Shown: piece by piece, positions 2,586 through 42,412 of the stretch
Layout: each line of letters opens with the position of its first letter
How positions within the stretch are numbered: the first letter of the stretch is position 1
From: Steromphala cineraria
Taxonomy: Eukaryota > Mollusca > Gastropoda > Trochida > Trochidae
DNA length: 64,000 nt
Direction: 5' to 3'
Assembly (NCBI GenBank): GCA_916613615.1
Contig: OU744724.1
Location: forward strand, 26,894,171 to 26,958,170
The notes under the pieces: model-generated
Databases searched by the model: none
Told to the model about the DNA's origin: nothing
The model's input: the letters and a program-made list of their open reading frames with translations, nothing else
Made by a program: the position numbers and the translations under genes

Positions 2586-5500
2586 ATGGCCACCACTGAC
2601 ATACTTTCTCTCGTCTTTGTGACGTTTGCCATTGCATGGTGAGATAATTCAATTGCAAATTTTGATGTTGATTATTGATTGTGTTTTGTCAGATCTAATG
2701 GAGCGGCATTTACATAAGCTCGAAGCTTATGTGCTAATCGATATTCATGTAATTAATTGTTTCATGAATAAAATAAATATAATATGTTAAAATCAATTTC
2801 GAATGCACTTTGAAGGCAATGTTTCTGTTTTGTTTATTATACTCCATGGCTGTTTCCAACTGCATTACCATTTAAAGATAACTCGACGAAAAAAACACTA
2901 TTATGTGGAATTGACATAAGACTATAATGGGATCATACATTACGCGTATAGCGTAATTCTACTATTTTACACTTACAACTGCAATGTACAAACTAATGTT
3001 TAAAGCCAATGTTTAATGGCTGCAGACACAACGCCATCCATTTTAAGATCAATGATAAATGTTTTATGGCTTTATTTTTGGAACCAGCCACCCATTATAA
3101 TTCAAATTTTAATGTTTTTAAAAGACTTCATTCACAGAAGATGTGGGTTATAGGATGTGGAAAATTCTATGCTTGATGGCTTCACAAACAGAAAACATCG
3201 TCGATTATTCTTTCAGTGTTTAATCAATAGACTAATGTTTTCATATACGTATTCTTGAGGGCTTCACTTGCAGAAGCCATCCTTTTAAAAATCAATTTGT
3301 ATACATATCAATGGCTCTAACATTTGAAACCCCATCCAATCTAAGGGCAATGTTTATATAGTTTTATAGCTTCACCTACAGTACACACCATCCACTATCA
3401 AAACCAATGTGTAGACTAATGGCTTTAGCAATTGAAGACCCCATCCAATATAAAACATAAAAGTTTGATTACTTCATTCACAGCAAAAACATTTGAAGAC
3501 AGTTTTATCCACAAAAAATAGTTCAATATGTAGAGTAATGTGTATATGTTTGATGGTTTCACAGAAAAATCAATTATAAGATCAATGTCTATATTTGTTT
3601 CCAAGTGGTGGAAAGACGATTTATCCCCACCAAGCACAACCAGGGGAGATAATCTACAACTACAAACAAGGGGCAAGGTTCAGTTTCACAGTTGACCCTT
3701 CGGACTGTCGGGTGCTTGACGAGTCAACCCCTCCCCTCAAGAACTATTCGTTTGGAGGGGACATCGGTCACTCCCGCTACGTGCTGTACGGACCACTCAG
3801 TAACTTGACCTACTGGACACAGAGATACGTGGACAACAGGGATGTCAAGAGAATCGGTAAGTTTACATTATAAATTTGCTTACTGAGATACTCTTTGTGA
3901 CCGTAGCTCGTAATTCGTAAATCCTTAATGATGATGTTCTCAAAAAATTGTTCCAAATACTGCTGCGTAATGTGCAAATGTGCAAAAACCTAGTGTAAAT
4001 ATCTCGTAATTCGTGATGTCCTTTGGGCATCGCAGTATTGAGACAAAGAAACGGACAATTTCAAATTTTGACTACAGAAGTAAACATAAAATTGCACCTT
4101 AAAAAAAACCAATATCAGATAATCGAAGTGACCAGGGGTCATTTAATTTTTGTTCTCTTCATGACTCTAATGATCATCTTCTTACAACATCCTTTACATG
4201 CGTGTTTGTAGTTCTGCTGCCATGTTATGCTGGTTTCATGATATTCAGTCTAAGTCAATCAAGCTTCAATATTATCCGTTTCCCTCCATTACTGAGTCTA
4301 GAAAGGCCTAGTAGAGGGTCGCGTCAGCCACGTATCGAATTGACCAAATAGAACTCAGCTTGCCTTCGCACGTATAACGTTGGAGGGTCATAGGTCACAG
4401 AGAGGTCGGCTGACTAGACCTTTCTAGACTCAGTATAGGAGTGAAACGGATAATATTGAGGCTAGGTTTTCTTAGACTGCATGATATTGAATGTGTTAAT
4501 CGAATTTAATTGAAATCGGTTTTCCAAATATGACCCCTTCTCTCTAATCCATCATGCCAAAATTCAAAGTTTGTATAACGCTGATACCAAGCACACACAC
4601 TTTGCTTTCCCTGGACCGTCGGATAGATTATTTATGAAACGTTAATTGTACAAAACCCTCTCCCTGAGGATCATACAACGAGGTTCACCAAGTTAGTTGC
4701 ACTTGACAGTCCATTCGAGGTAAACATTTACAGTGGATTAGAACTAGGTCACACAGTTGAATCATTTTACTCATTTCTGTATCCACGACTAGATGTAATT
4801 GTTTAGGACAATACGACAAATGTACTCACGGATTTCCAAATAAGAATGTTTTTTTTTTGCGTTGATTTCTTTGTTACCCTACGAATTTAGGTAATTCCTA
4901 GATACATGTATGTCAAACTGAATATTTTTCTCAAACAAGGCTTTGTGGGTGAATCGCATAAAAAGATGTATATTGCCCTTTTAATAAGTAAAATTTACAA
5001 AATAATTGCATATCTTAAACACATTCGAAAATATACGTCACTATTACAGCGGGGGTGAGAAAACAAACATGCAAAGCGTGTTACGCATGAAGGTGCATTT
5101 ACACGTGCGTGGCTACAGAAACAGTGTAAATGACAACAAATGTCATGAATGAACTTCTAAGAATAGTATTTTGTAACACGCGGTTACACTGTAAACATCT
5201 GAAAAATCAACGTGATCGTCAAAATACATTTTATTTGTACGTGACTAATATAATAAGACTATTAAGTCATTATGCATTAAATTAAGAACCGACATTCTCT
5301 AACTGTTTAAAGGGCCAGTGCTACGTCAGACCGGGATTGAGATGGATGCGACTGGCTATGCCTATGTGTTCATTGACGACTATGATCCTGATGAATATAC
5401 AAAACTGGCACACCTTCACATGTTATGTGCGTCATACAAGTAAGATCATTAGACTCAACCGTACAGTTGCACCCAAAAAGACTTCAACTATCTGATATTA

Positions 5501-8500
5501 ACTAGCATAACCAAATAAGATTTGCTTGTAACTTCCGTTTATATGTCAAGGAAGTATGATATATCCTTTGCGTATTTGCTGATAAAGGATCAGCCTAAAT
5601 TGTATAATCTGCATTCTTTCTTAGGGTCAACTCTCCATTCGTACATGTTTTTCCACACTATCATTGAAAACGTTCGCGAGCACCGTGTACTTGATTATGC
5701 ACAGTAGCGAACTTCCATCTCTCACCAAGGTTTATAACTTCTACTATTGGTATTTACAGATTTCAGAGGATATTTCTACTATTGGTTCTACAGATTTCAG
5801 AGGATACTTCTACTATTGGTTCTACAGATTTCAGAGGATACTTCTACTATTGGTTCTACAGATTTCAGAGGATACTTCTACTATTGGTTCTACAGATTTC
5901 AGAGAATACTTCTACTATTGGTTCTACAGATTTCAGAGGATACTTCTACTATTGGTTCTACAGATTTCAGAGGCTACTTCTACTATTGGTATCTACAGAT
6001 TTCAGAGAATACTTCTACTATTTGTATCTACAAGTTTCAGAGGATACTTCTACTATTTGTATCTACGTTTTTCAGAGGATACTTCTACTATATGTATTTA
6101 CACATTTCAGAGGATTCCAGCCTTACGCCCAAACTCCTGCTGGCACTCTGATGAAGTTTGATGACGTCATTGACGAAATATCCAAAGGATCTATGCTCTT
6201 CTACAGTATTTACCCAAGCTGGTGCGATCCGGTACCGACTAACTACACCCATATTTCGATAGATGTAGGACCCATTGATGGTAGGTTATGTACATTTAGT
6301 CTAAACCTTCAAGATGTACAATATATCTACAGTTAATAAAGGTTCTGCGATATATGCTTTTTGAACACATATTATGAAGTAAATTTTCATTGATGGATTT
6401 GTTTGACTTATGTTTGAAATTCGTAGGTATAACTTGTATAACTTACGTAGCTTGTGCAGCCAGTTATACAATCGTTTGACTTACGATTTTCAAGCAGGTC
6501 ACAACCGTGTGGCCAAACAAATTATGATATCCTTACTTTCAAAATAAATCCGTTCACATTTTAGTGCCGCTTCCCTCAAGCGGATCAAGATCAAACAGTA
6601 GTTCACAGAAAGGATACCGAAATGTATCTGATTTTTTTTCTCATAAACTGTTTTAATTATTTAAGATGTTTTATATGTAAATAAGATGTTTTCAATTACG
6701 TAATGATAGCATCATATCAGGGCATTGTTTCACTGCTAACATGTCCAATTGACCATGCTTCAACCAATCGTCAGGTAGCAGTTTGCGTAAACACAAATTG
6801 CGACGGTTTTACTGTTTTCCCCCAGTACCGGTCACATGACCTTGTTAGATCAAAAGGGAATGTGTTGCTAAGATTTCAAGGTCTAAATTTATAAAGTATT
6901 GAAGCGCAAAAAGTTCCAATTTAGCGATTTACAACCAAGAGACAAAAACCGACACAATTAATACGATTTGATATTTAATCCATAAAACGAGTTTTCCATT
7001 CATATTGAAGATATGTCATACTTAAATGTAGTATTTCAATAAGTGCAGTTCTTACCCGGCACTTAGACAAAGCTTTCACTTCCGGCTAACTACGTGATAA
7101 AGTAGTTTCTTGTTTATGCTACCAATAGGACCGCAGAACCGCTTAGCGCATTGGAAAACAGAAAAGCAAAACGAACCTAATCAAGTAAGCGTTTTGCTGA
7201 GTCATTGCAAAGGGATAAAATTTGGTCCGAGGTAAAACCTCATAAAGTTTTCAAGGGCTTGTAGTGTAGATTTATCGGAACGAAAGCGCTGGATTATCGA
7301 GGGTGGGATAGTACAATGATAACAGACTTTTAGTTAGCATTCAGTCGAAGAAACTACCGAAGCGTACGTTAACTGGACGCATAGTTCGTTTCTATGGTGT
7401 GTATCAAACCGCGGTGAATCGCCCGTCATAAAAATCGTGTTCGAACGTAGGTTCGGCCATAGAAATAAACCAATGAAATTCGAGGGTTTTGTAATGTCAT
7501 GGTAGAACGACAATCTTTCCCCGCAAATGAAGCTCAAGTCATTACACCTGGTCTACTCTCTGATGTAACACGAGCACTTCTCGGGTTCCCAGCATATTCG
7601 CCTAGGGGCAAAACATTACACCAAGAGCTACCCGAAATGAATGAAAACTCTTTTTGGTTCTTCCGGGAGAGGATTATTGATTAAGAGGGATGACTCATCT
7701 AGTATAGAATTCAATACTTCGTTACTCTCGCTAATGAATCACTTATTTCTTTTAATGTATGTTCGAAGCGGCAGATATATGTTCAATGTAATACAATACA
7801 AACGCCCACTGACAAGACTTGGCCCAATATTTGTTAATTACTGTCTTGGTTACCAGAATGTACAGCTTTACATTTCAACGTTCAGTCAATTTACTTTACC
7901 TGCGGGCATAGCTGCAGCCTAATGTAATTAATTATTGACCTCATATTTCGTTTTGTAAAGTAGACTAATCATATCTTAACGAATTCGTGCTATATATTGA
8001 CATGAATCTTAATAAATCACTAATATGTTTTCACCAATGACTGTGACTACATAATTTATTGATTACTGTATTAAACGTAATAAATGTAATTGCTGATCGA
8101 AAATGCGTAATAAGTGAAAATAAGAATGTGGGCGAAGGAGACAATAAGACATAATATTATATTTTAGAGTTTAGAATTTATTATAGGAATAAATCGCTCT
8201 TTAAGCCACTGGTATTGTATATCTTTCTATACAGAGCTATGTTTATGAATGTCGAACGTTAACTGTGTATTCCTTATATCTATTTGTGCGTTTTTGCTTT
8301 GGAATTATGAAAAATGGCTCGTATTTTGATAAAACATTTTAGCTTCTAATATACTGAAATAACTTGATATCATAAAAAATGAAAGAAATGTTACCAATTT
8401 TAATACAAGTTGTCTTATCAATAAATTAATTCTAATACAACGTCAAAACTTTGGTTGAGCTGCCCGACTCGAAGTGCTGATTCACTGTCACATGAAGTCA

Positions 8501-10004
8501 AATACCGCTCTCCGGTTCACATACCCTTACGCTAACTCCACTAATTTGTACCCTGGGCCCAGAAGCTAGATTCGCTCGCGCGCTTTTATGCCCAGGGTAC
8601 AGATTAGTGGAGTTCGCACCCTGAGACAGGATGTAAAATAATATTTTTTTATTTCTTTAATAATTCTGTCTTTGTAATCTGAATTATTATCCATATGAGT
8701 TGTAATGCTTCATAACATATATAACGATATGTTGCACATGCGTTATGAACCCTACCAGGTAACACTGAAATGTGAGACTAATTTACCATGAATCAAATAA
8801 ATATTGTAAATAGTAGAATTAATCCAAGTCTGAGTAAACCTAGCCGCAATATCACTCGCTATATAGAGGATACTAAACGACCTTCCATTTAATATTATTT
8901 TTATTAAACGAGTTAATGATTTTGTATAAACGAGCGAAAGCGATTTTAAGAGTTTAATAGAAATAGTATTTAATGGCAGGAAGTTTAGTATTCTGTTTAT
9001 AACTTGCCCTAAAATTCATGCAAACTTGCCGAAAGAGGGCTGAAACTAGCATTTCCGCGACTCGGCAGCCATTGTGAAAGTGAAAGTGAAGGAATGTTTT
9101 CTCCTACCTTGCCGAGTGACGCTGTCCTAGGTAAAGCGGAGCGCTTACACTGTGACGTCACAACAACACAGTACTATGACGTCAAACTTGCATTGTGATA
9201 TTACATTAGTTTAAAACTGCCGTATGAATATTACACTGCGATATCTTACACGGGCGAGTAATAAACTCCCATATTGACCTCTCGGCGACCTATGACCCTC
9301 ACATCAAACGTGAGGTTGCCGAATGGATCTATCCAATCATAAAGCGGCTACTAATTGTATCATTTGTCTTAAATTTGAAATTTGAACGTTATGTGCGATT
9401 GCAGTCTATGATGAACAGACAGATGAGCCCTGATTAGTCAAATCGATAGGTAGGCTGACGCGACTAATTACTACGTCTTTCTAGACTCAATATCGGAGCG
9501 TAGCGGGTATTATTGAGGTTAGGTTTACCACACTGTTCCTGACAGTCCTATATGTTCCTATATATTTTGAAGAAATTAAGTCTTTAAATTTTGCTAGTGA
9601 AAATATCATTCTATAATAATTTGTGTTGCAAAGCAATATGACATCTCAATTCGGATATAAATTTCTATGTGCCTTAAACAAAATTCTGTATGAAATTTAA
9701 CACCCATGGATAATCCAATGATATGTGTAATGTATCACATAATTCAATCATAAATAAGATATTTTTTCTTAAAGAATATAGATTTGATGAACAAGGGCAT
9801 CTCGTCTTCACCTACCGCTCTCAACAGCGTGGTCTTCGAGTCTACGTCACTACCCTGAAAATGACGTCATCTTCTGACGTCACAATGGAAACCTACACCT
9901 ATTCGCAAATTGACAACAAATCAAGTCAACTACAAGTTAAAACATGTCATTATGGAGAGAGTCACATGTTTGGTATTTATAAAATGCCTTCTCCAGAGAA
10001 ATAA
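2586..10004 (+). CDS. Gene 2: two-domain secreted VirK-like protein, five exons
   Basis: Exons: 2586-2638, 3606-3856, 5313-5439, 6111-6280, 9775-10004; joined length 831 bp, 276 codons, one open frame. Residues 1-18 (MATTDILSLVFVTFAIAC) form a signal peptide. Domain A (about 30-144) carries Cys52 and Cys140; domain B (about 149-262) carries FDDVIDEISKG, Cys182, EYRFDEQGHLVFTYR and Cys258. The Cys pattern suggests one disulfide per domain. NLT in exon 2 is a potential N-glycosylation site. Known: domain spacing resembles VirK-like proteins (PF06903); no enzymatic motif is visible. The start codon was chosen because it is the only ATG that gives a hydrophobic leader ending in a phase-2 donor. 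The final AAA-TAA overlaps an AATAAA signal (10000-10005). Introns 1 and 3 end in repeat arrays touching the acceptors. Family assignment is less certain than the gene model. Confidence 0.85.
3000..3605 (+). repeat. Decayed tandem array ending at gene 2 exon 2 acceptor
   Basis: About ten degenerate units of roughly 50-80 bp built on a recurring pattern: GGCTTCAC..ACAGAA, then CCATCCA, then an A-rich run and CAATGT. Recognisable starts are near 3020, 3069, 3125, 3178, 3260, 3313, 3369, 3420, 3470 and 3554. The last unit runs into the polypyrimidine/acceptor of exon 2 (TTTCCAAG, 3598-3605). Most units keep a CAG after a C/T-rich stretch, so they look like eroded copies of a 3' splice site. Confidence 0.5.
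4264..4466. mobile_element. Foldback MITE in gene 2 intron 2
   Basis: Imperfect inverted repeat with arms of about 45 bp: CAATATTATCCGTTTC on the left pairs with GAAACGGATAATATTG on the right, and CTGAGTCTAGAAAGG with CCTTTCTAGACTCAG. The centre carries GAGGGTC and GGTCATAGGTCACAG. A diverged relative sits at 9270-9530. No coding capacity. Confidence 0.7.
5741..6110 (+). repeat. 34-bp minisatellite (11 units) that copies the exon 4 splice acceptor
   Basis: Eleven near-identical 34-35 bp units starting CTACTATTGGTTCTACAG and ending ATTTCAGAGGATACTT. The eleventh TTTCAG (6105-6110) is the real 3' splice site of gene 2 exon 4, and exon 4 begins AGGATTCC, matching the AGGATACT of the repeat. The unit therefore spans the intron-exon junction, giving ten upstream decoy acceptors. 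There is no stop codon in any of the three forward frames. Confidence 0.92.
8531..8617. mobile_element. Short palindromic element in gene 2 intron 4
   Basis: Arms of 28 bp: left GCTAACTCCACTAATTTG... (8531-8558), right ending ATTAGTGGAGTTCGC (8590-8617), separated by about 31 bp containing GCTCGCGCGC. Typical of a foldback MITE or its solo ends. No coding content. Confidence 0.65.
9270..9530. mobile_element. Diverged relative of the 4264-4466 foldback element
   Basis: Shares with that element the blocks GACCTCTC...GACCTATGACCCTC and TCTTTCTAGACTCAAT followed by GGGTATTATTGAGG. The copy is degraded, and its left arm is only weakly complementary to its right arm. Confidence 0.5.
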
Positions 10005-10005
10005 A

Positions 10006-12581: not shown

Positions 12582-15500
12582 TTGCATGAGTGGATGGACT
12601 CCCAAACTATTAAAGCCAGGTGAATTCCTTGAATACTACACCAAAGGGGCTGCTCTTGCTTACTACGTGAACATTGAACAATGCCACAACCAGATCTACA
12701 GCAACATCACTCAGTACTCATTCGGTGTTGTGATCAACAACGGTTACGTCACAGCCTACCCCTCCGGCAAGTTCCTCCTGACCTACAGCACTGACAGGGA
12801 GGTCGACGGGAAACACCTGAATCTGACAGGTAAGCACTGGCAGGGCGGTCGAGGGGCAACACCTGAATCTGACAGGTAAGCAATAACAGGGAGGCCGACG
12901 GGAAACACCTAAATCTGACAGGTACACACTGATATGAAGTTCGATGGGAAACACCTGAATCTGAAAGGTAAGTACTGATATGAAGATCGATGGGAAACAC
13001 CTGAATCTGACAGGGAGGTCGATGGGAAACACCTGAAACTAACAGGTAAGCACTGGTATTGAAGCTCGATGGGAAACACCTGAATCTGAAAGGTAAGTAC
13101 TGATATGAAGATCGATGGGAAACACCTGAATCTGACAGGGAGGTAGACGGGAAACACCTGAATCTTACAGGTACGCCCTGATAGGGAGGTCGATTGGAAT
13201 TACCTGAATCTGACAGGGAGGTAGACGGGAAACACCTGAATCAGATAGGTACACACTGATATGAAGATCGATGGGAAACACCTGAATCTGACAGGTTAGC
13301 ATTGATATGAAGATCGATGGGAAACACCTGAATCTGACAGGTAAGCACTGACAGGGCGGTAGAGGGTCGATTTCCCTTCCTCAAATGATGAAAAGTTGTT
13401 CACACTAATATTGTCGCATGCAATGTCGCTTGATAAACGATATCTTTCCTTAGATATATGATGACTTACCCTCTTACCGAAATCGGAATCGAAATATGTT
13501 GAAGAAATAAATAAATGTGATACAGTTTCTTTAAAAGGCTTTTAGACGAAATACATATCTGCATTTTGTCATTTGATATTTGACTTAATCGCAGCGTCAC
13601 TGTATATAAACTCATGTCCAAAAGAAACGATACCAAGTTTTCAAAGTCGTCCGAAACAAAATTCTATAACCTGACAGAGTCGAATTTAAGTGTGTCTAAC
13701 AGGCATATATCTTGCAAAAAAGTATGCACATTTTCATTCTTCAGGAAAAGATACTTTTGATTTTGTGTCTTTTCAAATGTACATGGAGTGCATAAATCGA
13801 AATTTCAAATTGTTTTATGAACAGAACTTTTGTCATTTCACTTTAAAATTGATAAATTATTGAATTTATGTCAGAAAAAAATGTTGTTGATATAATACAC
13901 TTTATTTGACATAAATTCGTTGACGCGTCACTGCACTAGAACGTTTTAAAACAAGCGAAAGTGTCCAATTTCTCTCTGCTATCTCGCCTAGTTAAGGAGA
14001 TTCCAGATCGATGATTTTTTCAAATGCATGTTTCTCGCAAACATGAAAAGATAATGTTTTCAAATTTTGCATAGACGTAAGTTGACTACTGAAGAAATGA
14101 TATTACTATGTTTTAGTCTTATTAATCTGCAGTGGATTGAGTTATTTTGGGATTTGTATGGTATCGTTTCTTTTGGACATGAGTTTACATGTCTTCAGGG
14201 TTATTGTATCTAGGAATACTGTACATAGTGACACACGATACAAATATATTATATGTGTGCTTGTATGTATGCACGTTTGCACGCACTTGTACATGTAGGT
14301 TTGTATTATGTAATGATGCTTATTAGTCACTCAACTATATCACTTGATGCTTTTGACACCATTAAAGGTAAATATAGGCCTAAGTATACCCAGGAAAAAA
14401 ATATAAATCATAATGTTCTGAAGATCTCCCTTCAAATTTGACAACAGTAATATATGTATGTGAATTCACTAGTGTGATATGAGTAAGTTGAATGATATTG
14501 CATACTTCAGAATGTAAATATACCTATATGATAAATCACGCAACAACAATCGTTGCTAGCCAAAAGTGTACGTGTATGTGCACATGTACACATATAAAAA
14601 TATATCATTATTAATGTTGATAATTAAAATTATAATATCCAGGCCCTGCTATAAGGTCGACGGGTATTGCCCTCGGGGAGGACCCGGATGTTCTGGTCGA
14701 CATGAACGACATCAACCCCGCCAACGGGAAGATAATGGACCAATCAGAAGTCCTCTGTAAGAACACGGGAGAAGTTGCAGGGTAAGGAACGAATATATTT
14801 CAACATTCTGAGGGGCATATAAAAGTGGTGAACTAAATACAGCAAAATGTTTCGGATAAAAAACTCTATATTGTGAAATTCGGTCGTTTTCGGGTATACA
14901 TGTATATTATACATACCGTTTTTCCTCTAATACCGGTAAGCGCCCGAGTGCTTATCTTTTCAGCACCCCTTTACCCACTGGCGCTCAATAGAGGCCCGGC
15001 ACTTATGGAGGCTCGGCGCTTATTTCTTTTACAAAAAATTGAAGTTTGTTTTAAGACGTCTTTTACAATGAATACATGTATGTGTAAACTGTTATCTAAG
15101 AGATATTAATTGAGTGGTTTAAACCCGGCGCTTAGAAGTCCGGCGCTTATTCTATTGCTCGGAATTCCTTTTAATTTTATTGCTAAAACGATCAATCTTT
15201 TTTCAGGGAGTATGTTTTTTCAAAGTTGTATGTCTAACATAATGAGGAAATAAGCTTATACTCCTAAACGTGACCTTCAGAATTTTCAAAGTTGTTATCC
15301 AGAAAATCTTTCTTTTATTAATTTTCTCAATCATCTCATCATCATTATTGTGTCAGTCTGTCATATTTCTTTTAATAAGTTAAGTAAACAATGTTTGTTA
15401 CGTATGTGTCTTTCATACAACACCCACGAAAAATGACTTTGTATCAATAAACCGTACTGTGAATTATAATTTAGAATTCTTTGAAATTATTGTCTTTGAA

Positions 15501-16651: not shown

Positions 16652-17083
16652 ACACAATCGTTACAAGTGTTCAACATTGCCTCTCACTGTTTTATTACCC
16701 TCCTAATATTATTGAATAAACTTACAACAAACTGTATTAAATGTTTAATGATTGAAGGTGAAATAAAATGTTGAAAAAAGGTTTTTGTCGATTTATGACA
16801 ATGATTTTGATAATGATGAATAAGTGTTTGACGAAATAAAGGACCAGGAAATAACGTTGAAAATTCCGTTTTCGGGAACATTTTTCCAAGAAAACCGTTT
16901 ACTAAAACTTTTATTGAATCGTGCCAAATGTAATATCGATTGAACACTGAAGTATAGATTTTTTGGCATTTATTCAATATATTATATTTGAAGAGAAGCC
17001 AAACCCACGACTTCAAATATTACAGTGTTACCTCCTGTGTTTTATACATTATATACATGATAAAGTATTTTTCGAAGATTTAA

Positions 17084-17428
17084 AGGGACAGTAGCAGGGG
17101 GATTTAGGGGGGAATATAAGGTAATGTGAGGAAAATGAAAATCAATGGCTCCAATTGAAAGACAATGTATTGAAACTAACTGGATCAGTAATAATTCAAA
17201 TATTTAACGTAAAGTTTAGTCATGCGATTCTTTATTCTTACATAAAATGGATTAAGGGTGTTCACCGCCAATGGATTTTATGTGAATCTTCATACTTTGT
17301 CCTCTGACTATGGATGATTGGTTTGTGTAATGAGATTTTTGACACTGTCAAAATAATACATTTAGCATTAACTTATAATCAGTAAACATGTACAATATAA
17401 ACTTATAAGAAAACGTGCTACTGCCCCT
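17084..17428. mobile_element. TTAA-flanked MITE, family A, copy 1
   Basis: Ends AGGGACAGTAGCA and, inverted, GTGCTACTGCCCCT, with TTAA on both sides (17080-17083, 17429-17432); 345 bp. It shares the internal block GGGGGAATATAAGGT with five other copies in this window. A TTAA target with ends starting AGG points to a Kolobok-like element rather than piggyBac (whose ends usually begin CC); that is family-level knowledge, not proof. Non-coding. It lies in the spacer upstream of gene 4. Confidence 0.85.
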
Positions 17429-17803
17429 TTAAGAAAAAGTGTTTTTGTTATCAACATCAATGTAAGTCAGAACTCATTTTAGAATTTAGGATGATACACA
17501 GTCATAGAATACACTTTTCATTTTGCACTGGCTGACCTGTGTTTATATGTACACTAAAGTTTGTTTTGTCAATTTCTCTTCATCAATATTGATATCACAT
17601 ATTCTGAAATGTGATATATCATGGTGAAAGGTACACAATGATCATAATAAGACGTTTGACCTTTACCCTTTATCATATGTACTGCACTGTCATCGCTACT
17701 AACAAGTCTCAATACACTCAATACTAGTATACCCCTACATCTACATCTGAGACTGACCTACATTTCCCACGAAGGGTGTACAGCAAATATTTCTTTAGTG
17801 AAA

Positions 17804-20800
17804 ATGGCGTCCTTTGCTTTATCCTTTGTATCACTTGTCTTGTAAGTAAATCCTATTTATTTGTAATCATTTATTGCTTTTTTAATTTTCATAGTTATGA
17901 TTTCCCAATTTGAAGACGTCCTCTTTCATATTTCGTACAAAACATGTAACCTAAAATTCTCTTAATTTATTTATATAAAATTCTAACTTTTAACATTTTA
18001 TTTATAAACATTTGATAAGTTTCAAATTACGTATTCTGTACCTATATGTACATAAACATTCGTTTTATGTACTGCAAAAATGTCTGTTACAAAAATGTTC
18101 ATTTAGTACTATACCCGCTTAACATTTTTACGTAACAAAGTCATGGTGTCTAATGATATAAAATAACAAACACTCATTATTATAGCTACATCAAACATCA
18201 AAACTTTGAGAAGTAGAATTCATAAGCTACACAAGATCTCTTGATAAGAACTTTACTGTCCTAAATGGACAATGATCCGGATTATAAAGCTTGTAAAAGT
18301 TTTAATTGGAAGGTGAAATGTATTTTTGTGTGTTTATTCCCCATACTCTCTTACATATTTGTGACATATGTTAACTCAAATATGATTATCTTGCATATGA
18401 ATTGACCAGTGTCTATCTGTGACTATACTCAAAATGAAATATTTACACGTATAGGGGAGATGCGGGGCATGTTCGTTTTTTCAACTCGTCGTATTAAAAG
18501 CATAGGTATAGGCAAACTAGTTGAGTTAGGCACTTTCAACAATAAAGGTAAGATATGTCTGAATATATGTACAAACGTACATTATTATATTGCAAGAAAA
18601 CGACTCGTTATCTCTATTTTAGTGAAAAGGGGACGTACCGGCCCCGGTCTCCCCTACTTCATTTCACACTGCAAGGCTTAGAACTACACTATATTCACTG
18701 CTGTCGTATAGCTCTGAACAAATGCATTGTCCATCGGCAATGTTATGTTTATTTAGGAAGTGATATCGTATTATGATAACCTAATGGCATAAGCAACTAT
18801 GAGGGAAACGGGTTATCGTTAAAATTAAGATAATTGTCATTGATTCAATATTGTCAACAACTACCATGTTAATATATACTCACTTTATCACTGACACGTT
18901 TTAAAGATATGTAGCTTATGTTTGATATATTTCGGTAAGGCACCGTTTCGACGTAGATACCAATTCCTTTATTTGACAGATAGCTTAGACATACCAATAA
19001 AAAATGATTGAATTTGCTTTCGTAATACCACCATGGCATTATATGAAATGACAGCATTATAATAATAATAATGATCATTCTTATAGTTATTTATTGCTAT
19101 TGATTCAATGTGTAACAAGCATCCTTTTCTTTTATAACTATATCATTACTAGTGTACTGAGGCAAAATAAGTTGAATTTGCTCATCTAATACCACCATAT
19201 GGCTTTATTAAACATGATAGATATCAAAATGATAAGTTACAAATTTCAATTGGTCCAAGGATCTTAAAATCTATCATTCTCTGTTATAACTACAGCCAGC
19301 ATAATGATTAAATTTGCTCTTGTACACCAACGATGTTGATGGGAATGGTTTAGTTTGTACTACCACAGACTACTGGGAGTAGAGTCGGTTCCACAAGAGA
19401 TCCCCCCGTCTGGTCTGATGCAGTATGTGGAGAGTGGGGGAGTTCTAGCCTACTATCTTAACGTCTCCAAATGCGACGTGAACCTCCCTAAACAGATCCC
19501 CACCTACTCCTGGGGTGACACCGTCTATACTGCTATGGCTCTAGGGCAGTCTTCAACAAGCTACACTGTGCAGTTCTCCATCACAAGAGATGTCAGTGGA
19601 AAGCAGTACAATTTAACAGGTGCAATTAAAAAAAAATCTTGTAAATGTTTTAGAGTGCAGAGAGGAGGATGAATTGCGGTTTAACGCCGCTTCTTAAGGT
19701 ATTTCATTTATATCACGGCTGCTTGTATTATTGCAGGGAGAAATCCCGCAATTCTGGCTATCTATGCATTGCGGTGAAGCCTGCGAGCATCGGTGGGAAA
19801 ATTGCGAATCGTGGGTGCATCCTGCTACATCAGCGTATATCTCTCCGCATTATGTTCTAGCCTATCCCCTGATATCCTTCAATCATACTCAGTCGACATA
19901 TACGCTGATGTAGCAAGATGCCATGGGTGGTACTTTGCTGAAATTCAGTATAGCATTGCACCCAAACCTTACTGCCTGTAGAACAGTTCTCTACTGCAGG
20001 CCACGTTTCCGAGCCCCTGGTGATATTGCAGAAAGGGACGTTATTAAGTTGATCAAATGATGAATATACGTTTTAATGTTTTGCATATTTCCCATGGAAC
20101 ATGCATCATTAGATAATGTTTTCCATGAAATATTTTGTGAATATAAGCCTTCAATTGCTCTTTGAATATGATTTGCTATGATTAATAAATCTACAACCTA
20201 AAAGACCTGTATTGTTTGTTATAATACGTTGTGAACGCCATAACGTATAATAAATATTACAAGTATATTGAAGGGAGAGGCGTTAAGATAAGTAAAGACA
20301 TCGTTATTACTCAATTCAGTCACTTTTGGCGAATAAATATAATGCTTAAATCACATCTTTTGGTTTCACTATCAAATCATTTCTCTCATTAATATATGAA
20401 CTACATCCTTTTTAAAAACAGTTCAAAAGTATTCGATTACGTACTCAATAATATCTGCTTTTGTATTTTACTAAAATCTTACTTCGTCAATAGTGTCTTA
20501 TCCTGAGGAAGCACTCATAAAATCTCTCGATCTTGTTCAGACAACGCTGTTCGGTTTACTCAAGTGAGTCTGATGCCAAGTGAAGTGTTCGTTGAGTTGA
20601 CTGATGTGGATGAACACACACCACAGTTCCTTCAAACCGGAAGTATACAGTGCAAATACGATCAGAGGTGAGGAACGATCATACACCAGTAAGTCCAACA
20701 TATATACATGACATAACAGTTATTACAAATTTATGTTTATTATTTGTTTGTGTTTGTGTTTTGTGTGTTTTTATAGTTGCAGTTTATGTGTTGTATTTGT

Positions 20801-23800
20801 GTGTACCTTTTTATGTGATTTTTTGTGGTATTGTTTTCGTTTTCTTTTTTTTCTATTGGTTCTTACGTTCTTGATATTTCGATATTCGACACAAAAGATA
20901 TTTATGCAAATGCTAACAACTCAATTAAATTACGTTTTACCATTTTGAGTGTATTTTCATTCAACATTCATATAATTATATGATAATAAAAGAAGTTTTA
21001 TGCTCTGTCTGATCTGAAGGTTTATAGGAGGTTTTACAACCGTAATGCGTTTTTCGCCTTTAAAATGCTTTTGAAAAATTATTTACAAGACGTTACATTG
21101 TTTCCTAGTGGGGTGAAGTTGTTTGGTCAGGCAGTGGCAGGCAGTCAGCTGACGACGTACGAAGACTTGGTGAGTCACCTCGAGATGGGATACGACGTAC
21201 ACTACGTACTGAGAATGGATATGTGCACACCCTCTAACAACACCGGTCTCTTGTGGGGCGGTGTCATAACTGGTGAGATATTATTTCATACCTAGAGAAC
21301 GATTTTTAAAGAATCTTGAATGATATTGAGTGAGGTTTGCATTTTTCAAAGTCAATTTTTTATTTTAGGTATTTTTTTTCAAATTCATTTTATTCATTAA
21401 AATTAATAATAAAAAACAAAGTTGATATTCCGTCAAAACTTTAAAACCAAGTATGATAGACACTCGGATAGATCGATCGGCAATGAAATGAAAACTTTAG
21501 GAAGTATACGAAAGTTCAGGCCATAGAAACTGTTTTTAAGTGTTCAATTTTTTTATAGCCTATAAGTACTCTCTACATGACACAGGTCCAGTCTTTCTGA
21601 TACGTATAGTCTCTCTGTAAGTACTCTCTACATGACACAAATCCAGTCTTTCTAATACGTACAGTTTCTATGTAAGTACTCTCTACGTGACACAAATCCT
21701 GTCTTTCTAATACGTACAGTTTCTATGTAAGTACTCTCTACGTGACACAAATCCTGTCTTTCTAATACGTACAGTCGTTCTGTAAGTACTCTCTACATGA
21801 CATAAATCCAGTCTTTCTAATGCGTACAGTCGTTCTGTAAGTACTTTCTACATGACACAAATCCAGTCTTTCTAATACGTACAGTTTCTATGTAAGTACT
21901 CTCTACGTGACACAAATCCTGTCTTTCTAATACGTACAGTCGTTCTGTAAGTACTCTCTACATGACATAAATCCAGTCTTTCTAATGCGTACAGTCGTTC
22001 TGTAAGTACTTTCTACATGACACAAATCCAGTCTTTCTGATACGTACAGTCTCTCTGTAAGTTCTCTATACATGACACAAATCGAGTCTTTCTGATACAT
22101 ACAGTCTCTCTGTAAGTACTCTCTACATGACACATATCCAGTCGTTCTGATAGATACAGTCTCTCTGTAAATAACTCTCTACATGACACAAATCCAGTCC
22201 TGATACGTAAGTCTCTCTGTAAGTACTCTCTACATGACACAAATCCAGTCTTTCTGATACGTACAGTCTCTCTGTAAATACTCTCTACATGACACAGATC
22301 CAGTCTTTCTGATACGTACAGTCTCTCTGTAAATACTCTCTACATGACACAGATCCAGTCTTTCTGATACGTACAGTCTCTCTGTAACTACTCTCTACAT
22401 GACACAGATCCAGTCTTTCTGATACGTACAGTTTCTCTGTAACTACTCTCTACATGACACAGATCCAGTCTTTCTGATACGTACAGTCTCTCTGTAAGTT
22501 CTCTATACATGACACAGAATCAGTCTTTCTGATACGTACAGTCTCTCTGTAAGTACTCTCTACATGACACAGATCCAGTCTTTCTGTTACAAACAGTCTC
22601 TCTGTAAATACTCTCTACATGACACAGATCCAGTCTTTCTGATACATAAGTCTCTCTGTAAATACTCTCTACATGACACAAATCCAGTCTTTCTGATACA
22701 TAAGTCTCTCTGTAAATACTCTCTACATGACACAGATCCAGTCTTTCTGATACGTACAGTCTCTCTGTAAGTACTCTCTACATGACACAGATCCAGTCTT
22801 TCTGATACGTACAGTCTCTCTGTAAGTACTCTCTACATGACACAGATCCAGTCTTTCTGATACGTACAGTCTCTCTGTAAGTACTCTCTACATGACACAG
22901 ATCCAGTCTTTCTGTTACAAACAGTCTCTCTGTAAGTACTCTCTTCATGACACATATCCAGTCTTTCTAATACGTACAGTCTCTCTGTAAGTACTCTCTA
23001 CATGACACAGATCCAGTCTTTCTGTTACAAACAGTCTCTCTGTAAGTACTCTCTACATGACACAGATCCAGTTTTTCTGATACGTACAGTTTCTCTGTAA
23101 CTACTCTCTACATGACACAGATCCAGTCTTTCTGATACGTACAGTCTCTCTGTAAGTACTCTCTACATGACACAGATCCAGTCTTTCTGATACGTACAGT
23201 CTCTCTGTAAATACTCTCTACATGACACAGATCCTGTCTTTCTGATACATAAGTCTCTCTGTAAGTACTCTCTACATGACACAGATCCAGTCTTTCTGTT
23301 ACAAACAGTCTCTCTGTAAATACTCTCTACATGACACAGATCCAATCTTTCTGATACATAAGTCTCTCTGTAAGTTCTCTCTACATGACACAGATCCAGT
23401 CTTTCTGATACATACAGTCTCTCTGTAAATACTCTCTACATGACACAGATCCAGTCTTTCTGATACATAAGTCTCTCTGTAAGTTCTCTATACATGACAC
23501 AGATCCAGTCTTTCTGATACGTACAGTCTCTCTGTAAGTTCTCTCTACATGACACAGATCCAGTCTTTCTGATACATAAGTCTCTCTGTAAATACTCTCT
23601 ACATGACACAGAATCAGTCTTTCTGATACGTACAGTCTCTCTGTAAATACTCTCTACATGACACAGATCCAGTCTTTCTGTTACAAACAGTCTCTCTGTA
23701 AGTACTCTCTACATGACACAGATCCAGTCTTTCTGATACGTACAGTCTCTCTGTAAGTACTCTCTACATGACACAGATCCAGTCTTTCTGATACGTACAG

Positions 23801-24526
23801 TCTCTCTGTAAGTACTCTCTACATGACACAGATCCAGTCTTTCTGATAGGTACAGTCTCTCTGTAAGTACTCTCTACATGACACAGATCCAGTCTTTCTG
23901 TTACAAACAGTCTCTCTGTAAATACTCTCTACATGACACAGATCCAGTCTTTCTGATACATACATGTAAGTCTCTCTGTAAGTTCTCTATACATGACACA
24001 TATCCAGTCTTTCTGATACGTACAGTCTCTCTGTAAGTACTCTCTACATGACACAGAATCAGTCTTTCTGATACGTACAGTCTCTCTGTAAGTACTCTCT
24101 ACATGACACAGATCCAGTCTTTCTGATACGTACAGTCTCTCTGTAAGTACTCTCTTCATGACACAGATCCAGTCTTTCTGTTACAAACAGTCTCTCTGTA
24201 AGTACTCTCTACATGACACAGATCCAGTCTTTCTGATACGTACAGTCTCTCTGTAAGTACTCTCTACATGACACAGATCCAGTCTTTCTGATACGTACAG
24301 TCTCTCTGTTACAGGATATCGATTCTCGCATCAGGGTGGCGTGGAATTCACCCAGGTCGTGGATTCAGCTCAGAAGAAGTTCTTCATCAGTGTTGGTGTG
24401 ACTGAGACTGAAGTGACTGTAAAATCATACACAGTCTTCAGACTGACAAGAACGCAGTCTAAAACCGAGACAAAGAAATGTCACCTCGGGAAGGGTTTAC
24501 AAATAACCGTTAATAGCGATGCTTGA
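17804..24526 (+). CDS. Gene 4: two-domain secreted VirK-like protein, five exons
   Basis: Exons: 17804-17841, 19369-19619, 20541-20667, 21109-21272, 24315-24526; joined 792 bp, 263 codons, open throughout. Exon 1 plus the start of exon 2 give a strong leader (MASFALSFVSLVLLLGV). Domain A contains YVESGGVLAYYLNVSKC, SWGDTVYTA and TRDVSGKQYNLT, then NAVRFTQVSLMPSEVFVEL with late Cys in IQCKY. Domain B has LTTYEDLVSHLEMG, Cys in RMDMCTPS, WGGVITGYRFSHQGG, VKSYTVFRLTRTQSK and late Cys in KKCHLGKG. The late C-x-x-G-x-G is what most resembles VirK-family ends. NLT is a likely glycosylation site. Exons 2 and 3 have the same lengths as in gene 2. Intron 4 (3 kb) is almost entirely a minisatellite. 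Role unknown; inferred extracellular. Confidence 0.85.
18900..19368 (+). repeat. Weak long-unit repeat before gene 4 exon 2
   Basis: Three diverged copies of TTGAATTTGCT...TAATACCACCATATGGCTTTA near 19008, 19169 and 19308, spaced about 140-160 bp. The last copy ends in the exon 2 acceptor (CTACCACAG). The similarity is low but consistent. Confidence 0.35.
19818..19921. mobile_element. Inverted-repeat element with CTACATCAGCGTATAT ends, in gene 4 intron 2
   Basis: Left arm CATCCTGCTACATCAGCGTA (from 19818), right arm ATATACGCTGATGTAGCA (to about 19920). Related copies occur upstream of gene 5 (26716-26846) and, truncated, upstream of gene 6 (39034-39130). Non-coding MITE-like sequence. Confidence 0.6.
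21556..24314 (+). repeat. 55-bp minisatellite, about 50 copies, filling gene 4 intron 4
   Basis: Unit GTAAGTACTCTCTACATGAC + ACAGATCCAGTCTTTCTGAT + ACGTACAGTCTCTCT. Every canonical unit carries a consensus 5' splice site (GTAAGT), preceded by a pyrimidine-rich stretch ending in CAG. The last unit runs directly into the exon 5 acceptor (TCTCTCTGTTACAG, ending 24314). The 5' part (about 21600-22080) uses a different variant (ACAAATCC, CTAATACGTACAGTCGTTCT) and contains a three-unit higher-order period (about 165 bp, repeated from about 21720 and again from about 21886); the 3' part is more homogeneous. Small ORFs here are artefacts of a stop-poor repeat. Confidence 0.95.
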
Positions 24527-24882
24527 ATGCTGCTTGTATGGAAGCGTAATCTTTCAATGAACTTCACATGTTTAGAAAATGAGATTGTATTCTTATGATT
24601 GTGAATGATATATTGATCAAACGATCGATGATTACAATGTCAGCCGGGGAAGGATACTTTTGAAAATTGACATATGTACATGTATGGAATTATTTATGAT
24701 TTGAAAGGATTTACTAGGGTAATTTTTCCTATGAAAAGATTGAGAGTAGATAAGATGTATTTTGAAAAGTCGACAATTGGTCACAGATGATTTATTTGAT
24801 ATTGCCTGATGTATTCATGAGTGATTCTGATTTTTGTACATATGTATAGCTATATAAAAAGGCTTTCAACATGTGATTTTGA

Positions 24883-25218: not shown

Positions 25219-25565
25219 AGGGGCAGTAGCACGTTTTTAGGGGGAATATAAGGTGATGTCAAGAAAATGAAAATGTATGGTTCGAATTGAAAGACATGCA
25301 TTTAAACTAAATGGAGCAGTTATAATTCAAATATATAATGTGAAGTTTAGCTATGCAATTCCCTTTTCTTACCCAAAATGAATAAAAGGTGTTCACACAA
25401 AATGGCCGCCCATGGATTTTAGGTGAATCTTCATACTCTCTGACTATGGATGATTGGTTTGTATGAGATTTTTGACACTGTCAGAATAATACATTTAGCA
25501 TTAAGTTACAATTATCAGTGACAAATCAAAAATAGAAAATTGTCCAAAAACGTGCTACTGCCCTT
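25219..25565. mobile_element. TTAA-flanked MITE, family A, copy 2
   Basis: 347 bp; starts AGGGGCAGTAGCACGTTTTT and ends AAAAACGTGCTACTGCCCTT, with TTAA flanks (25215-25218 and 25566-25569). Same orientation and internal GGGGGAATATAAGGTGATG block as copy 1. Non-coding. Confidence 0.88.
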
Positions 25566-25712
25566 TTAATATAAGTTTGATTATCGAAAGTAAAACGCAT
25601 ATTACTTAGCAGGTAAAATGTAGGTGAAAAGCTACAAGAATCTATGTCACTGACTCGAATTGCCTCAAGCATTTTTCGTGTGAAGCGTGACACTTTTCTA
25701 AACTTACGCAAG

Positions 25713-26939: not shown

Positions 26940-27285
26940 AGGGGTAGTAGGGGTAATATAAGGTGATGTCAAGAAAATGAAAATGTATGGTTCCAATTGA
27001 AAGACAATGCATTTTAACTAAATGGAGCAGTTATAATTCAAATATATAATGTGAAGTTTAGCCATACGATTCCTTTTTCTTACCTAAAATGAATAAAAGG
27101 TGTTCACACAAAATTGCCCATGAATTTTAGGTGAATCTTTATACTTTGTCATCTGACTATGGATGATTGGTTTGTCTTATGAGATTTTTGACACTGTCAA
27201 AATAATACATTTAGCATTAACGTTGAATTATCACTGACAACTTTTAAATATAGAATTATCAATAAACGTGCAACAGCGCCTTTAA
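26940..27285. mobile_element. TTAA-flanked MITE, family A, copy 3, about 110 bp upstream of gene 5
   Basis: Starts AGGGGTAGTAGGGGTAATAT after TTAA. The right end reads CGTGCAACAGCGCCT before TTAA, not the family end CGTGCTACTGCCCCT. The same string, TGCAACAGCGCC, also sits just left of the element. The matching place upstream of gene 6 (about 39870) has a single ACAACAGCGCCTTTAATAAT and no element, so it is an empty site. Confidence 0.82.
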
Positions 27286-27397
27286 TAATCAAAACTAAAC
27301 ACTACTGCTAGATGCAGCCTCTGTTTATCAGTCTGTATCTTTAACCTATTGCCCTCGTTTACATTTCACCTGAGATTAGATTACCTGCAGAAAAGCA

Positions 27398-30300
27398 ATG
27401 AAGATGCAGTCAATAACGCTCGTCCTTGTGTTGACTCTTCAGTAAGTCATTTCATTAATAAGGTATCTTATTTGTTTCTTTATTCATATTTCTCTGGTAA
27501 AGGTAATAAAAATAGATTTACTTGTGTTACACATGCATGTTATACCGCATTTTTCTATATCGGATGAATTGGATCCTTTATATGGGAACTTTATAAGTCT
27601 CTGTATAAATTTACTTAAGAAGTCCAGGAAAATAACAAAGAGTTGCATTGGTCCCCTAAATCCATATCCCCTAACCCGACACCTCGACAAGGGAATACCC
27701 CTACCTAAGTTTAAGAATCGTCAGAGGCAGATCAAGTCATGATATGGTGATCGAGCCTCTTTTCGCATTGGATCAAATAATAGGGTTCCGCCAGTTTCCC
27801 CTGGCGGAAAATGATTGCATCACAATCCAAATTTGTTTTTAGCAAATGACAACGCTTCTCGTATGGAAAGGGTGGTTCATATCACAATGCTTTAGTCATG
27901 ATTCAGTAGCCAAATGTTGATTTTAGAACAACTAACTTTGATTGCCACCAATCAGAAATCTCCCATTCTACCCCACAAACTCGGCTAAAAAACAGAGGCT
28001 GTATCAGCATTTCAGACTTGATCTGCCTCCGTGGAGAGAGAATGTTTAAGAACGTATCATAGGCTTTAATCTTAACGATTCACATACTAAATGATGCAGT
28101 TTGGGTTTGACCAGTGCTTTTATTGATGTTTTTAATATATATATTATAAAAAAACCCACATAGGTTATATTGAGATTTTTGTGATAGTGTAAATGGAATA
28201 TAACAATGCAATGTTCGTATTTCTTTCTTGGACGTGATTGTAACATGATTACGAACAGCTTAAGCGAAAACAAGAAGCAAGTTCGTTCGTTTAAGAGGCA
28301 TTTGGAGACAGTTTTGAAAAATGAAAGAAAGACAACTTGATAGAAAACGTAAAAGCTTGTAATAGTGGTAATTAACCAAAGGCAAAAAAATCCCTATAAT
28401 GTTTAATTTTTACTACAGAAAAGAACATAACAACAACTGATCTTGACATGTTGCCAACACTTTGTATAAAACCTTTTCAATTTCCATTTAATTTATGTGA
28501 TATTTTTGTTCTTAAATAAAACCACTATATTCAAAGGGAAATGGCTTATGCGTTTAGTTTTTTGAAGAGTATATATTGTAAATTTATTAAAATATTTATA
28601 TATTTACAGATTGACATGGGTCCAATCAAAATCCTTGGAAGTATCATTTCCTAAATCTATGAACGGTGGAGGGTATTCTGCCTACCATCTTAACGTATCG
28701 GAGTGTGAAGTTCAGCTCCCCAAACATATTCCTGCATACTCGTGGGGCTTCACCATTTACACTGCAAGACTCATCCTGAAGAATCCAATGTTACTGTATA
28801 CATACTTTTCAACCACAAGAGCTGTTAGTGGAAAACCATATAATTTAACAGGTAATCATAATGATTTAATATACTATATTATAATTTCTTGCGCATAATA
28901 ATATGATTATGCATGGTTTTTGCATGAACATAATATTTGAGGTAAACATAATGATTTCACATCATATGTTATTACTGCATGCACATAATCGATCAGGTAA
29001 TCATAATAATCTAAAGATGCTGTTTCATACTTGCATGCGGTTCAGGCTGAAATTTAGCTATTGAGAAAAGAAATACATCACTTTGTAGAAAAATCTTTTG
29101 TCGAAATTTTGATATCATATTTAGATTGTTTACTCAACAATAACATACCTATTTCGACGCCCAAAGCACAGTACCCCTTGTAGAAAGGGCATAGCATTTA
29201 ACGAACCCACTGTCGGTGACGTAATCATTACGCGTGTAGGATTTACACCAACTAGCAAATTTGCGTTCGATGGGTAACAACTGCCAGCAACGCATACCTT
29301 ATTCGGAGAAAAAGAAAAGAAAATCTAGTCGTGCGCGACAAAGACGGTTTTCAAGCGTATATTTAGAGACCGGAAGTTGTGAGATGGCCACACTTGATTC
29401 GCCTTTATGTTGGCTGCCGTTTTCCGTAATTTTGGTAAATTATCTCATATTTAATGAATTTTGGTCCGATTTTCCCTAGGTTGGTCGCAAAATTTTTCTA
29501 AAAATACAACACATACATTAAATATACTTTTAAAATATTGCAAGTATGATACAGCATCTTTAAATAAAAGTTGCATGCACTTAATCGCTCAGTTAACCAT
29601 AATGATTTCACATCATATATCATGATTGCATGCCATTATTACTATTACTGTTTGAAATTTTTGCACGTGCATCCCTTTTACCTGGATGTTAGTACAACCT
29701 TCTCACACAGCGTGAACTATCTAATAAAACAGTGATATTTGGTTAGACACCTTCTTCAATTCCTTGACAAAAAATGAACACCAATTTTGTTGGTATGGCA
29801 TTTCTATTAACGTTGTTATGTTTTTGGTTATTTGCGAGCAGATAAGTAACTCATTTGTGACTGTGTGTGATTGTGACTGGTGTAGACTAAATAGTACATC
29901 GTGTTATTATAGACCGATCCAGTCTGTCAATCAAATTTCGCGCATGCGTTATTTCAGCCAATCAGAGCGGCGATTTCGCTACGCGAATTTGTCAACTTTA
30001 CTTCCGGGGACAAACAAAGCGATAATGGCGACTCGTTTCTGTTGTTGCAAATAATATTTATTTATGGTGTTCTTTACAATATTTATGCATCGATGTCATG
30101 ACATAAGTATTCCTCATTGGGTAGGGTAGCAAGGTTTCCGTTATCCATCGCTAAAATTGTGGAAATGGCTTACTACATGGTAAAAAAACAATCACGGGTC
30201 GGACAAGTGTTCGAAGGTGAGAATTTGTTCGAATTACGCACTTTTCAAGTCACTCCCATAAACTTTCAACAAGGTGACAGCTCTAAGTACCCTTTGATAA

Positions 30301-35651: not shown

Positions 35652-35679
35652 AGAACACGCGTGTTCAGGCATCAGTGTC

Positions 35680-39602: not shown

Positions 39603-39609
39603 TGGTATT

Positions 39610-39780: not shown

Positions 39781-41642
39781 GCACTGGTATACACATAGTA
39801 GCAACTGATATAGTAACTTCCCAAGACACGTTCAATGTTATGAATGGCAACATGCAGTGTTTAAGAAAGGAATATACAACAGCGCCTTTAATAATAAAAA
39901 CTAAACACTACTGCTAGATACAGCCTCTGTTTAACAGTCTGTATCTTTAACCTATTGCCCTCGTTTACATTTCACCTGAGATTAGATTACCTGCAGAAAA
40001 GCAACGAAGATGCAGTCAATAACGCTCGTCCTTGTGTTGACTGTTCAGTAAGTCATTTTATTAATAAGGTATTTCATGTGTTTCTTTGATTCATATTCCT
40101 CTGGTAAAGGTAATAAAAATACATTTACTTGTGTTACACATGCATGTTATACCGCATTTTTTCTATGTCGGATGCATTGGATCCTTTATATTGGAACTTT
40201 ATAACTCTCTGTAGAAATTTACTTAAAAAAGTTCAGGAAAATAACAAAGAGTTGCTTAGGTCCCTTCAATCCATATCCCCTTACCCGTCACCTCGACAAG
40301 GAAATACCCCTACCTAAGTTTAATAACCATCAGAGGCAGATCAAGTCATGACATGTTGATCGAGCCTCTGTTCCCATTAGATCAAATCATAGGGTTCCGG
40401 CAGTTTCCCCAGCGGAAAATAATTGCATCACAATCCAGTTGAGTTTTTTTTAGCAAATGACAATGCTTCTCGCATGGAAAGGGTGGTTCATGTCTAAATG
40501 CTTTTGCCATAGTTCTTTTTTTAAATTTTTTTTAAATTTTATTTTTTATTCCTGATATCATTGTACATATATACATGTACACGTAGTCTTGAACATGGTC
40601 AGTTTTTTTTTAGACATACAAGAAAAAAACATAAAAGGTCAAAGACAATCATTCACTCACACATTTTGCCATGATTCAGTAGCCAAATGATGATTTTAGA
40701 ACAGCGTCGCTGATTGCACAACTAACTTTGATTGCCACCAAAACTGAAATCTCCCATTCTACCCCACAAACTCGGCAGAAAAACAGAGGCTGTATCAGCA
40801 TTTCAGACTTGATGTGCCTCCGTGGAGAAAGAATGTTTAAGAACGTATCATAGGCTTTAATCTTAACGATTCACCTGCTAAATAATGCAGTTTGGGTATC
40901 ACCAGTGCTTTTATTTATGTTTGTTATATATATATTATAAAAAAGCACATAGGTTATTTTGAGATTTTTGTGCTAGTGTAAATGGAATATAACAATGCAA
41001 TGATCATATTTCTTTCTTGGACGTGATTGTAACATGATTACTCACATGATTACGTACAGCTTAAGCGCAAAAAGAAGCAATTTCGTTCGAAAGAGGCATT
41101 TGGAGACAGTTTTGAAAAATGAAAGAAAGACAACTTGATAGAAAACGCAAGGCTTGTAATAGTGATAATTAAGCAAAGGCAAAAAATACCAACCCATAAT
41201 GTTTAATTTTTACTACAGAAAAGTACATAAAAATAACTGATCTTGACCTGTTGCCAAAACTTTGTATAAAACCTTTTCACTTACCATTTAATTTATGTGA
41301 TATTTTTGCTCTTAACTTAAACCACCATTTTCAAAGGGGAATAGCTTATGCCTTTAATTTGTGAAGAGTATATATTGTAAATTTATCATAATATTTATAC
41401 CTTTACAGATTGACATGGGTCCAATCAAAATCCTTGGGAGTATCATTTCCTCAATCTATGAACGGTGGAGGGGATTTTGCCTACCATCTTAACATATCGG
41501 AGTGTGAAGTTCAGCTCCCCAAACATATTCCTGCATACTCGTGGGGTTTCACCATTTACGCTGCAAGACTCATCCTGGAGAATCCAATGTTAGTGTATAC
41601 ATACTTTTCAACCACAAGAGCTGTTAGTGGAAAACCATATAA

Positions 41643-42172
41643 ACTCACGAGCAAAAGAAAGTATAACACTCAGTTGTATTTATCATATGTAAAATTTTCA
41701 AAGTCAGATATCTCGATTTTTTGACGTCGTTTTCCAAAAATGACTTGTTTGGAAAATTAGTCCAAAACATTAAATAAATAAAAGAATACCTCTACGCGGT
41801 TTTTTAAATTTAAAAAAAAAAATTAAAAATTCAATATTAAAATTTCCCTAAATTTATTTTGACAATACACAACTTTTCATCGACATATAACACATACTCT
41901 GTGTGAAAATCAATAAATGTTCATCGTCATGCACACATTTACAACATTTTGAACATGGTAGGGGTCATGTTGGTGTAAATTTCATTTCTTACCCTAGTCT
42001 ACTTTAAATGATGACATTTAAGTGAAAATATAAAACAGTCACCAATAAAGCCATTCAAACTACAGCCGAAAGGTGTTATTGTCTGCTTCCATAATCAAAT
42101 GCATCTTATTTCTTTAAAATATTGAATTAATGGAAAACAAGTGAGTGTTATACTTTCTTTTGCTCGTTAGTT
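41643..42172. mobile_element. 530-bp TAA-flanked element inside gene 6 exon 2
   Basis: Ends ACTCACGAGCAAAAGAAAG and, inverted, AACTAACGAGCAAAAGAAAG, with TAA at 41640-41642 and 42173-42175. The uninterrupted gene 5 reads CCATATAATTTAACAGG, so the insertion point is exact. A three-base TAA target fits PIF/Harbinger-type MITEs. No transposase. A diverged relative lies at 25713-26202. Confidence 0.9.
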
Positions 42173-42180
42173 TAATTTAA

Positions 42181-42412
42181 CAGGTAATCATAATGATTTC
42201 ATATAATATATCATAATTTCATGCGCATAATCATATTTGCATGAACATAATATTTGAGGTAAACATAATGATTTCACATCATATTTTATTACTGCATGCA
42301 CATAATCGATCAGGTAATCATAATGATTTAATATAAACATTGCATGCACGATATCGGTAAGTTAACCATAATGATTTCACATCATATATAATGATTGCAT
42401 GCCATTGTTACT
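42181..42412 (+). repeat. Tandem copies of the gene 6 exon 2 splice donor
   Basis: Four blocks: ACAGGTAATCATAATGATTT (about 42180), GAGGTAAACATAATGATTTC (about 42256), CAGGTAATCATAATGATTTA (about 42312) and AAGTTAACCATAATGATTTC (about 42361), spaced about 75, 56 and 48 bp, each with a GCATGCACATAAT-type tail. The first is the original exon 2 donor position. Confidence 0.78.

Follow-up and report, generated by a model that had tools for sequence, protein, structure and literature searches.

Why should tandem repeat arrays that have no sequence in common lie on the splice junctions of a single gene family, and must some process be aiming at those junctions? The question is raised by a 64,000-nucleotide stretch of the gastropod Steromphala cineraria (hereafter the window; C5:26894171-26958170 of the 1.27-Gb assembly), in which six tandem paralogues of one family, G1-G6, lie on the + strand. 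In lancelets, the name 'mirages' is used for minisatellite-like tandem duplications across exon-intron boundaries, 5′ and 3′, with units of 10-160 bp (PMC3087553, PMC3902484). Five genes of the cluster described here show mirages or something close, and these arrays are probably neutral mirages in a mollusc genome rich in repeats, with no targeting needed.

Arrays at the exon edges

The gene models were built by hand. G2-G5 are complete five-exon genes with stop-free frames and with intron phases 2,1,2,1 in each, and therefore their exon edges can be regarded as secure. A search with the G2 protein returned two relatives, both of them uncharacterized Haliotis proteins, from H. rubra and H. rufescens (52% identity over 91%), while the G4 protein gave no homologue at 1e-3; the only domain hint, VirK (PF06903; precomputed on the Haliotis protein P0001), lies below the Pfam cut-off. 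It could be argued that the edges have been mis-called and that the arrays only appear to be aligned with splice sites, as the models rest on genomic DNA and not on transcripts. However, G2-G5 share phases and positions, their frames are fully open, and Haliotis proteins (P0001 and P0002) are collinear with them across the exon junctions, which makes such an error hardly credible.

On the window, Tandem Repeats Finder (TRF) detects three strong arrays within the gene cluster, in G2, G3 and G4. Weaker arrays were taken from a gapped self-match scan with drop-off; over 20 shuffles, the mean number of matches per 64 kb is 3 at score >=24 and 1.2 at score >=30. The arrays and the exons they concern are as follows.

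2983..3605, +: decayed tandem array filling the 3′ portion of G2 intron 1 as far as the acceptor of exon 2, with one register at ~56 bp
3606..3856, +: G2 exon 2 (open frame, conserved phase, Haliotis alignment)
5737..6115, +: G2 array, 34 bp x11 (TRF, copy alignment)
6111..6280, +: G2 exon 4 (gene model, Haliotis alignment)
12582..12829, +: G3 exon 2 (gene model, Haliotis alignment)
12787..13366, +: G3 mixed array, 46/32 bp (TRF, self-match scan, copy alignment)
21563..24309, +: G4 array, 55 bp x50, in intron 4, adjoining the exon 5 acceptor (TRF, unit alignment, motif score)
24315..24527, +: G4 exon 5 (gene model, Haliotis alignment)
28840..29004, +: decayed donor array of G5 exon 2, donor at 28852 (scan score 30, hand-placed copy alignment, edge score 27)
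42175..42410, +: the same decayed donor array in G6 exon 2, donor at 42184 (scan score 56, copy alignment, edge score 30)

The clearest case on the acceptor side is G2 exon 4. Each unit in intron 3 contains a tract rich in pyrimidines as well as TTTCAG with the AG that follows it, and the copy alignment gives 11 copies of TTTCAG|AG at a spacing of 34-35 bp, the eleventh of which is the exon 4 acceptor at 6111. The unit thus spans the exon-intron boundary, and the predicted 34-bp acceptor array stands, its last copy being the acceptor that the model uses; as a motif, the unit is borderline acceptor-like (P 0.066). This last acceptor yields the family protein, whereas each acceptor further upstream would add a step of 34 bp, and longer isoforms may be conceivable.

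On the donor side, the unit of the G3 array copies the last ~40 bp of exon 2 together with the donor GTAAG, and again spans the boundary, as had been proposed for a 46-bp array (donor motif P 0.003). The copy alignment and a direct reading of the sequence trace the second period to an eight-base repeat, CTGACAGG, which lies within the exon, 32 bp ahead of the donor. It is the first donor (12830) that yields the family protein. Six extra donors were checked and either shift the frame or follow a stop, so that the family protein requires the first one; further copies of GT exist outside those six.

G5 and G6 are duplicates with ~90% identity, introns included, and each carries at least two decayed copies 3′ of the exon 2 donor, aligned at hand-picked places, with a unit that spans the boundary. 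The donor array predicted for these genes is therefore upheld as a single shared event and not as two. The reading frame is intact in G2-G5, while that of G6 is broken by an insertion: an element with 62-nt inverted ends (79%) occupies 41640-42174 within G6 exon 2, ~9 bases before the donor, at a site that is empty in G5. Remains of a non-LTR retrotransposon, with an endonuclease (PF14529) and a reverse transcriptase (PF00078), lie in G6 intron 4 (43700-48210).

The two remaining arrays are less clear. The 55-bp array of G4 does adjoin exon 5, and its last unit holds the pyrimidine tract, but the acceptor AG (24313-24314) lies outside the array, which ends at 24309 and does not span the boundary. 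The motif GTAAGT, said to occur in each unit, is present in 34 of 49 and is not a donor of G4; the unit does not stand out as either a donor (P 0.18) or an acceptor (P 0.33). In G2 intron 1, the decayed array itself is real (2983-3600; 12 self-matches with a best score of 39, against at most 4 matches and a score of at most 21 in 25 shuffles), yet it ends ~5 bp short of the exon at 3606, and the edge shows no clear copy of the splice signal supposed to lie inside its unit: the best copy score there, 16.5, is reached by 12% of interior segments and is not clearly above chance. A further decayed repeat in G4 intron 1 (18881-19235; offset 164, score 37), with a third copy placed by eye ~25 bp away from the acceptor of exon 2, is suggestive only.

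The original prediction of unrelated arrays at several exon edges is thus largely sustained, with corrections for G4, G2 exon 2 and G5/G6. The units are indeed unrelated in sequence, which amounts to four or five events, while the splice signal, claimed for the units of at least five arrays, is contained in the unit of at least three (G2 exon 4, G3 exon 2 and G5/G6 exon 2).

One more such array was found outside the cluster, in a blind sample of 25 stretches of 10 kb (L002-L026, 250 kb). Specifically, a 61-bp x3 array (L004:8999-9183; C1 ~12,008,998) has a unit made of the final 32 bp of an exon followed by CAG|GTAAGTG (exon end plus CAGGTAAGT), and the exon, 8760-9030, is open for 89 codons after its acceptor. 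Judged by this open frame and by two splice signals, the array is a clear mirage. The exon matches no Pfam family, three neighbouring open frames have only matches under the cut-off, two L004 frames joined have no homologue at 1e-3, and the coding score of the exon is not significant (P 0.13).

Known mirages and related duplications

The prediction had also held that nothing of the kind has been described, which does not agree with published work on lancelets and on human genes. The lancelet genes reported to carry mirages include Adh3, the globins BflGb6 and BflGb9, troponin C and PGBD5, and splicing seems to be left undisturbed (PMC3087553, PMC3902484); the PGBD5 mirage has repeats of 60 and 108 bp, and troponin C is cited in the same report (PMC3902484). 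Lancelet mirages and the arrays of the window are alike as tandem duplications spanning an exon-intron boundary. The arrays differ in belonging to a mollusc, in reaching up to 50 copies and in that a single cluster of tandem genes holds several of them, unrelated to one another, and they are known here from genomic DNA alone. The lancelet Adh mirage was reportedly first described by Canestro in 2002.

In human genes of segmental duplications, one study describes internal tandem repeats, some of them at exon-intron boundaries, with units of ~30 bp on average and 27 intron modifications (PMC2812944). These resemble the arrays of the window as minisatellite units at the exon-intron boundaries of recent paralogues; unlike the latter, the human repeats vary between paralogues, and RNA evidence links them with new introns as well as with alternative splicing. 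A further route of intron gain that has been put forward is the tandem duplication of AG|GT sites (Rogers; Gao and Lynch; both via PMC3087553). Such gain, as outlined there, likewise duplicates splice-signal sequence, but no new intron has arisen here: the introns of G2-G5 lie at the family positions, in the same place and phase.

No molluscan mirage was found in a literature search that covered titles and abstract openings, with most subscription journals outside its coverage; the literature searched reports mirages in lancelets and something related in duplicated genes of humans. Four mirages in a mollusc genome (G2, G3, G5/G6 and L004, the last on another chromosome-sized contig) suggest that the phenomenon is not confined to lancelets. 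The 11 acceptors of G2 and the at least seven donors of G3 offer natural tests of how the spliceosome chooses among near-identical sites, and mirages are possible raw material for new introns.

Chance, targeting and selection

How might such arrays arise without any aiming at splice sites? A short tandem duplication that happens to span an exon edge would give birth to a minisatellite and would be tolerated because one junction, either the first donor or the last acceptor, remains correctly placed, with the surplus copies falling into the intron. The array would then grow and decay like any minisatellite. The blind sample contains 39 arrays of TRF score >=100, which make up 6% of its sequence; as the genome is this rich in repeats and exon edges are many, some edges would be struck by chance and no aiming would be needed. 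Neutral birth, growth and decay could also explain the range from fresh arrays (G2 intron 3, G4) to decayed ones (G2 intron 1, G5/G6). The extra splice sites are presumably ignored, as the lancelet reports suggest, so that the junction on the exon side would be the one in use. Typical animal gene counts lead to a guess of one exon edge every ~2 kb. At about that spacing, one or two arrays like that of L004 would, as a guess, be expected by chance in the blind sample.

Several observations weigh against neutral mirages. All three strong arrays of the cluster lie at an exon edge or within 5 bp of one; the P values for this placement are uncorrected for the choice of the window, which was picked from an unknown number because it shows this very pattern. 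At the genomic array density, the expectation for 39 edges (the number used in the model; the exact count for five genes is 40) is 0.5 edge-seeded arrays, against three with G4 counted (P=0.015), a modest excess, whereas deep in the introns 3.6 arrays of TRF score >=100 are expected and none is present (P=0.027). A strict count without G4 leaves two (G2, G3) against 0.5, or P ~0.09 by arithmetic on the same expectation; when the density sample is limited to units <=100 bp and L021 is excluded, 0.17 are expected and P is 7e-4 for three. If one unit of each strong array is placed randomly into the introns, all three fall at an edge with a probability of 4e-4 to 6e-4, or 1e-4 to 2e-4 when intergenic DNA is included; addition of the two decayed arrays, a pair chosen post hoc, gives 5e-7 to 8e-6. 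Moreover, when read in the frame of exon 4, the acceptor array of G2 has no stop for 139 codons (shuffled-unit P 0.036), a feature not expected under neutrality, and under scanning models of 3′ splice-site choice the use of the last among 11 near-identical acceptors is not obvious.

Such placement would follow if exon edges were genuine hot spots of tandem duplication; breaks in sequence that is transcribed, prone to R-loops or bound by the spliceosome could be one cause. The two older arrays, which likewise lie at edges, and the several lancelet genes named above point the same way, but the window was chosen for the pattern, and the limited tests made outside it lend no support: they show no genome-wide excess, the outcome that had been named in advance as refuting the idea. 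These tests have low power, as many arrays lie outside genes and the genes are unannotated. Points taken at random from the genome fall within local repeats almost as frequently as exon edges do: copies scoring >=25 within 600 bp are found at 5 of 44 edges against 3.1 expected (random genomic 60-mers, n=4000, 7.1%), and at score >=16 there are 6 against 4.7 (44 edges, 60-bp pieces), with G5 and G6 counted apart and the G6 exon 5 start one base off, as also in the edge scores given above; in the G6 gene model, the exon 4 start is one base off. The random-60-mer control is a severe one, because long arrays weigh by their length, while an edge in the middle of an array would cost the exon.

Nor do arrays elsewhere favour splice signals. 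Among the 39 blind arrays the unit is donor-like (P<=0.05) in one and acceptor-like in none, where ~2 of each are expected; a broader motif run, which took in 44 sample arrays with TRF scores from 50 upwards and used matrices that include array edges, gives donor P<=0.05 in three (L004, L011 and L018) and no acceptor. The coding score of the sequence flanking the sample arrays is near chance, but it is a weak measure, by which even the L004 exon has P 0.13. Tandem donors of short period are not in excess genome-wide: AGGTAAGT repeated at 11-27 bp occurs at 267 places, fewer than the 1102 of its reversed control (the 100 matches listed hold 23 distinct places on C1-C3, after which two C4 arrays dominate), CAGGTAAGT repeated at exactly 26 bp at 2 against 4 for the control, and GTAAGT N6 GTAAGT at 3086 against 12917, one dispersed sequence dominating among the 100 matches listed. 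Targeting of splice sites by repeats, a process that had been proposed, is thus not shown, and hot spots at exon edges seem unlikely. Somewhat more doubtful still is the broader idea that splice junctions of expressed gene families in the mollusc lineage are hot spots of minisatellite birth, with mirages far above what array density predicts and maybe through a process shared with lancelets.

Selection might instead retain the extra splice sites for redundancy or for variable exons, in which case the open frame of the G2 array and the invariance of GTAA in 49 G4 units could be its traces. However, the fifth donor base of the G4 units is conserved at only 0.69, and several positions outside the signal are equally invariant. 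The proposal of variable exons fails for the six extra donors of G3 that were checked but may hold for G2, whose array is open in the frame of exon 4; none of the unit lengths 34, 46 and 55 bp is divisible by three, and the G5/G6 array is decayed, with G6 broken by its insertion as well. Selection of this kind is therefore very improbable, and neutral mirages remain the preferred account.

Further observations in and around the cluster

The start of G1 lies upstream of the window. A tblastn match places its exon 2 at L036:4278-4528, in the 5 kb directly before the window (L036), and an exon 1 is proposed, by eye, from L036:2936 on. A weak two-copy duplication from the G1 exon 2 donor onward (L036:4529-4700; score 28.5, P 0.07-0.09) is suggestive only.

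A TRF array of score 52 sits in G3 intron 3. Rfam and tRNA scans of the window gave no match. A dispersed repeat of ~350 bp occurs at 17079-17433, 25215-25569, 26950-27288, 62105-62454 and 62813-63176, with copies 76-87% identical, of which the one at 25215-25569 bears inverted ends of 24 nt (96%). Far from the cluster, the start of C1 (L001:1-10000) is a near-perfect 185-bp x54 array in which CCCTAA-like words are frequent, perhaps a complex telomere-end repeat.

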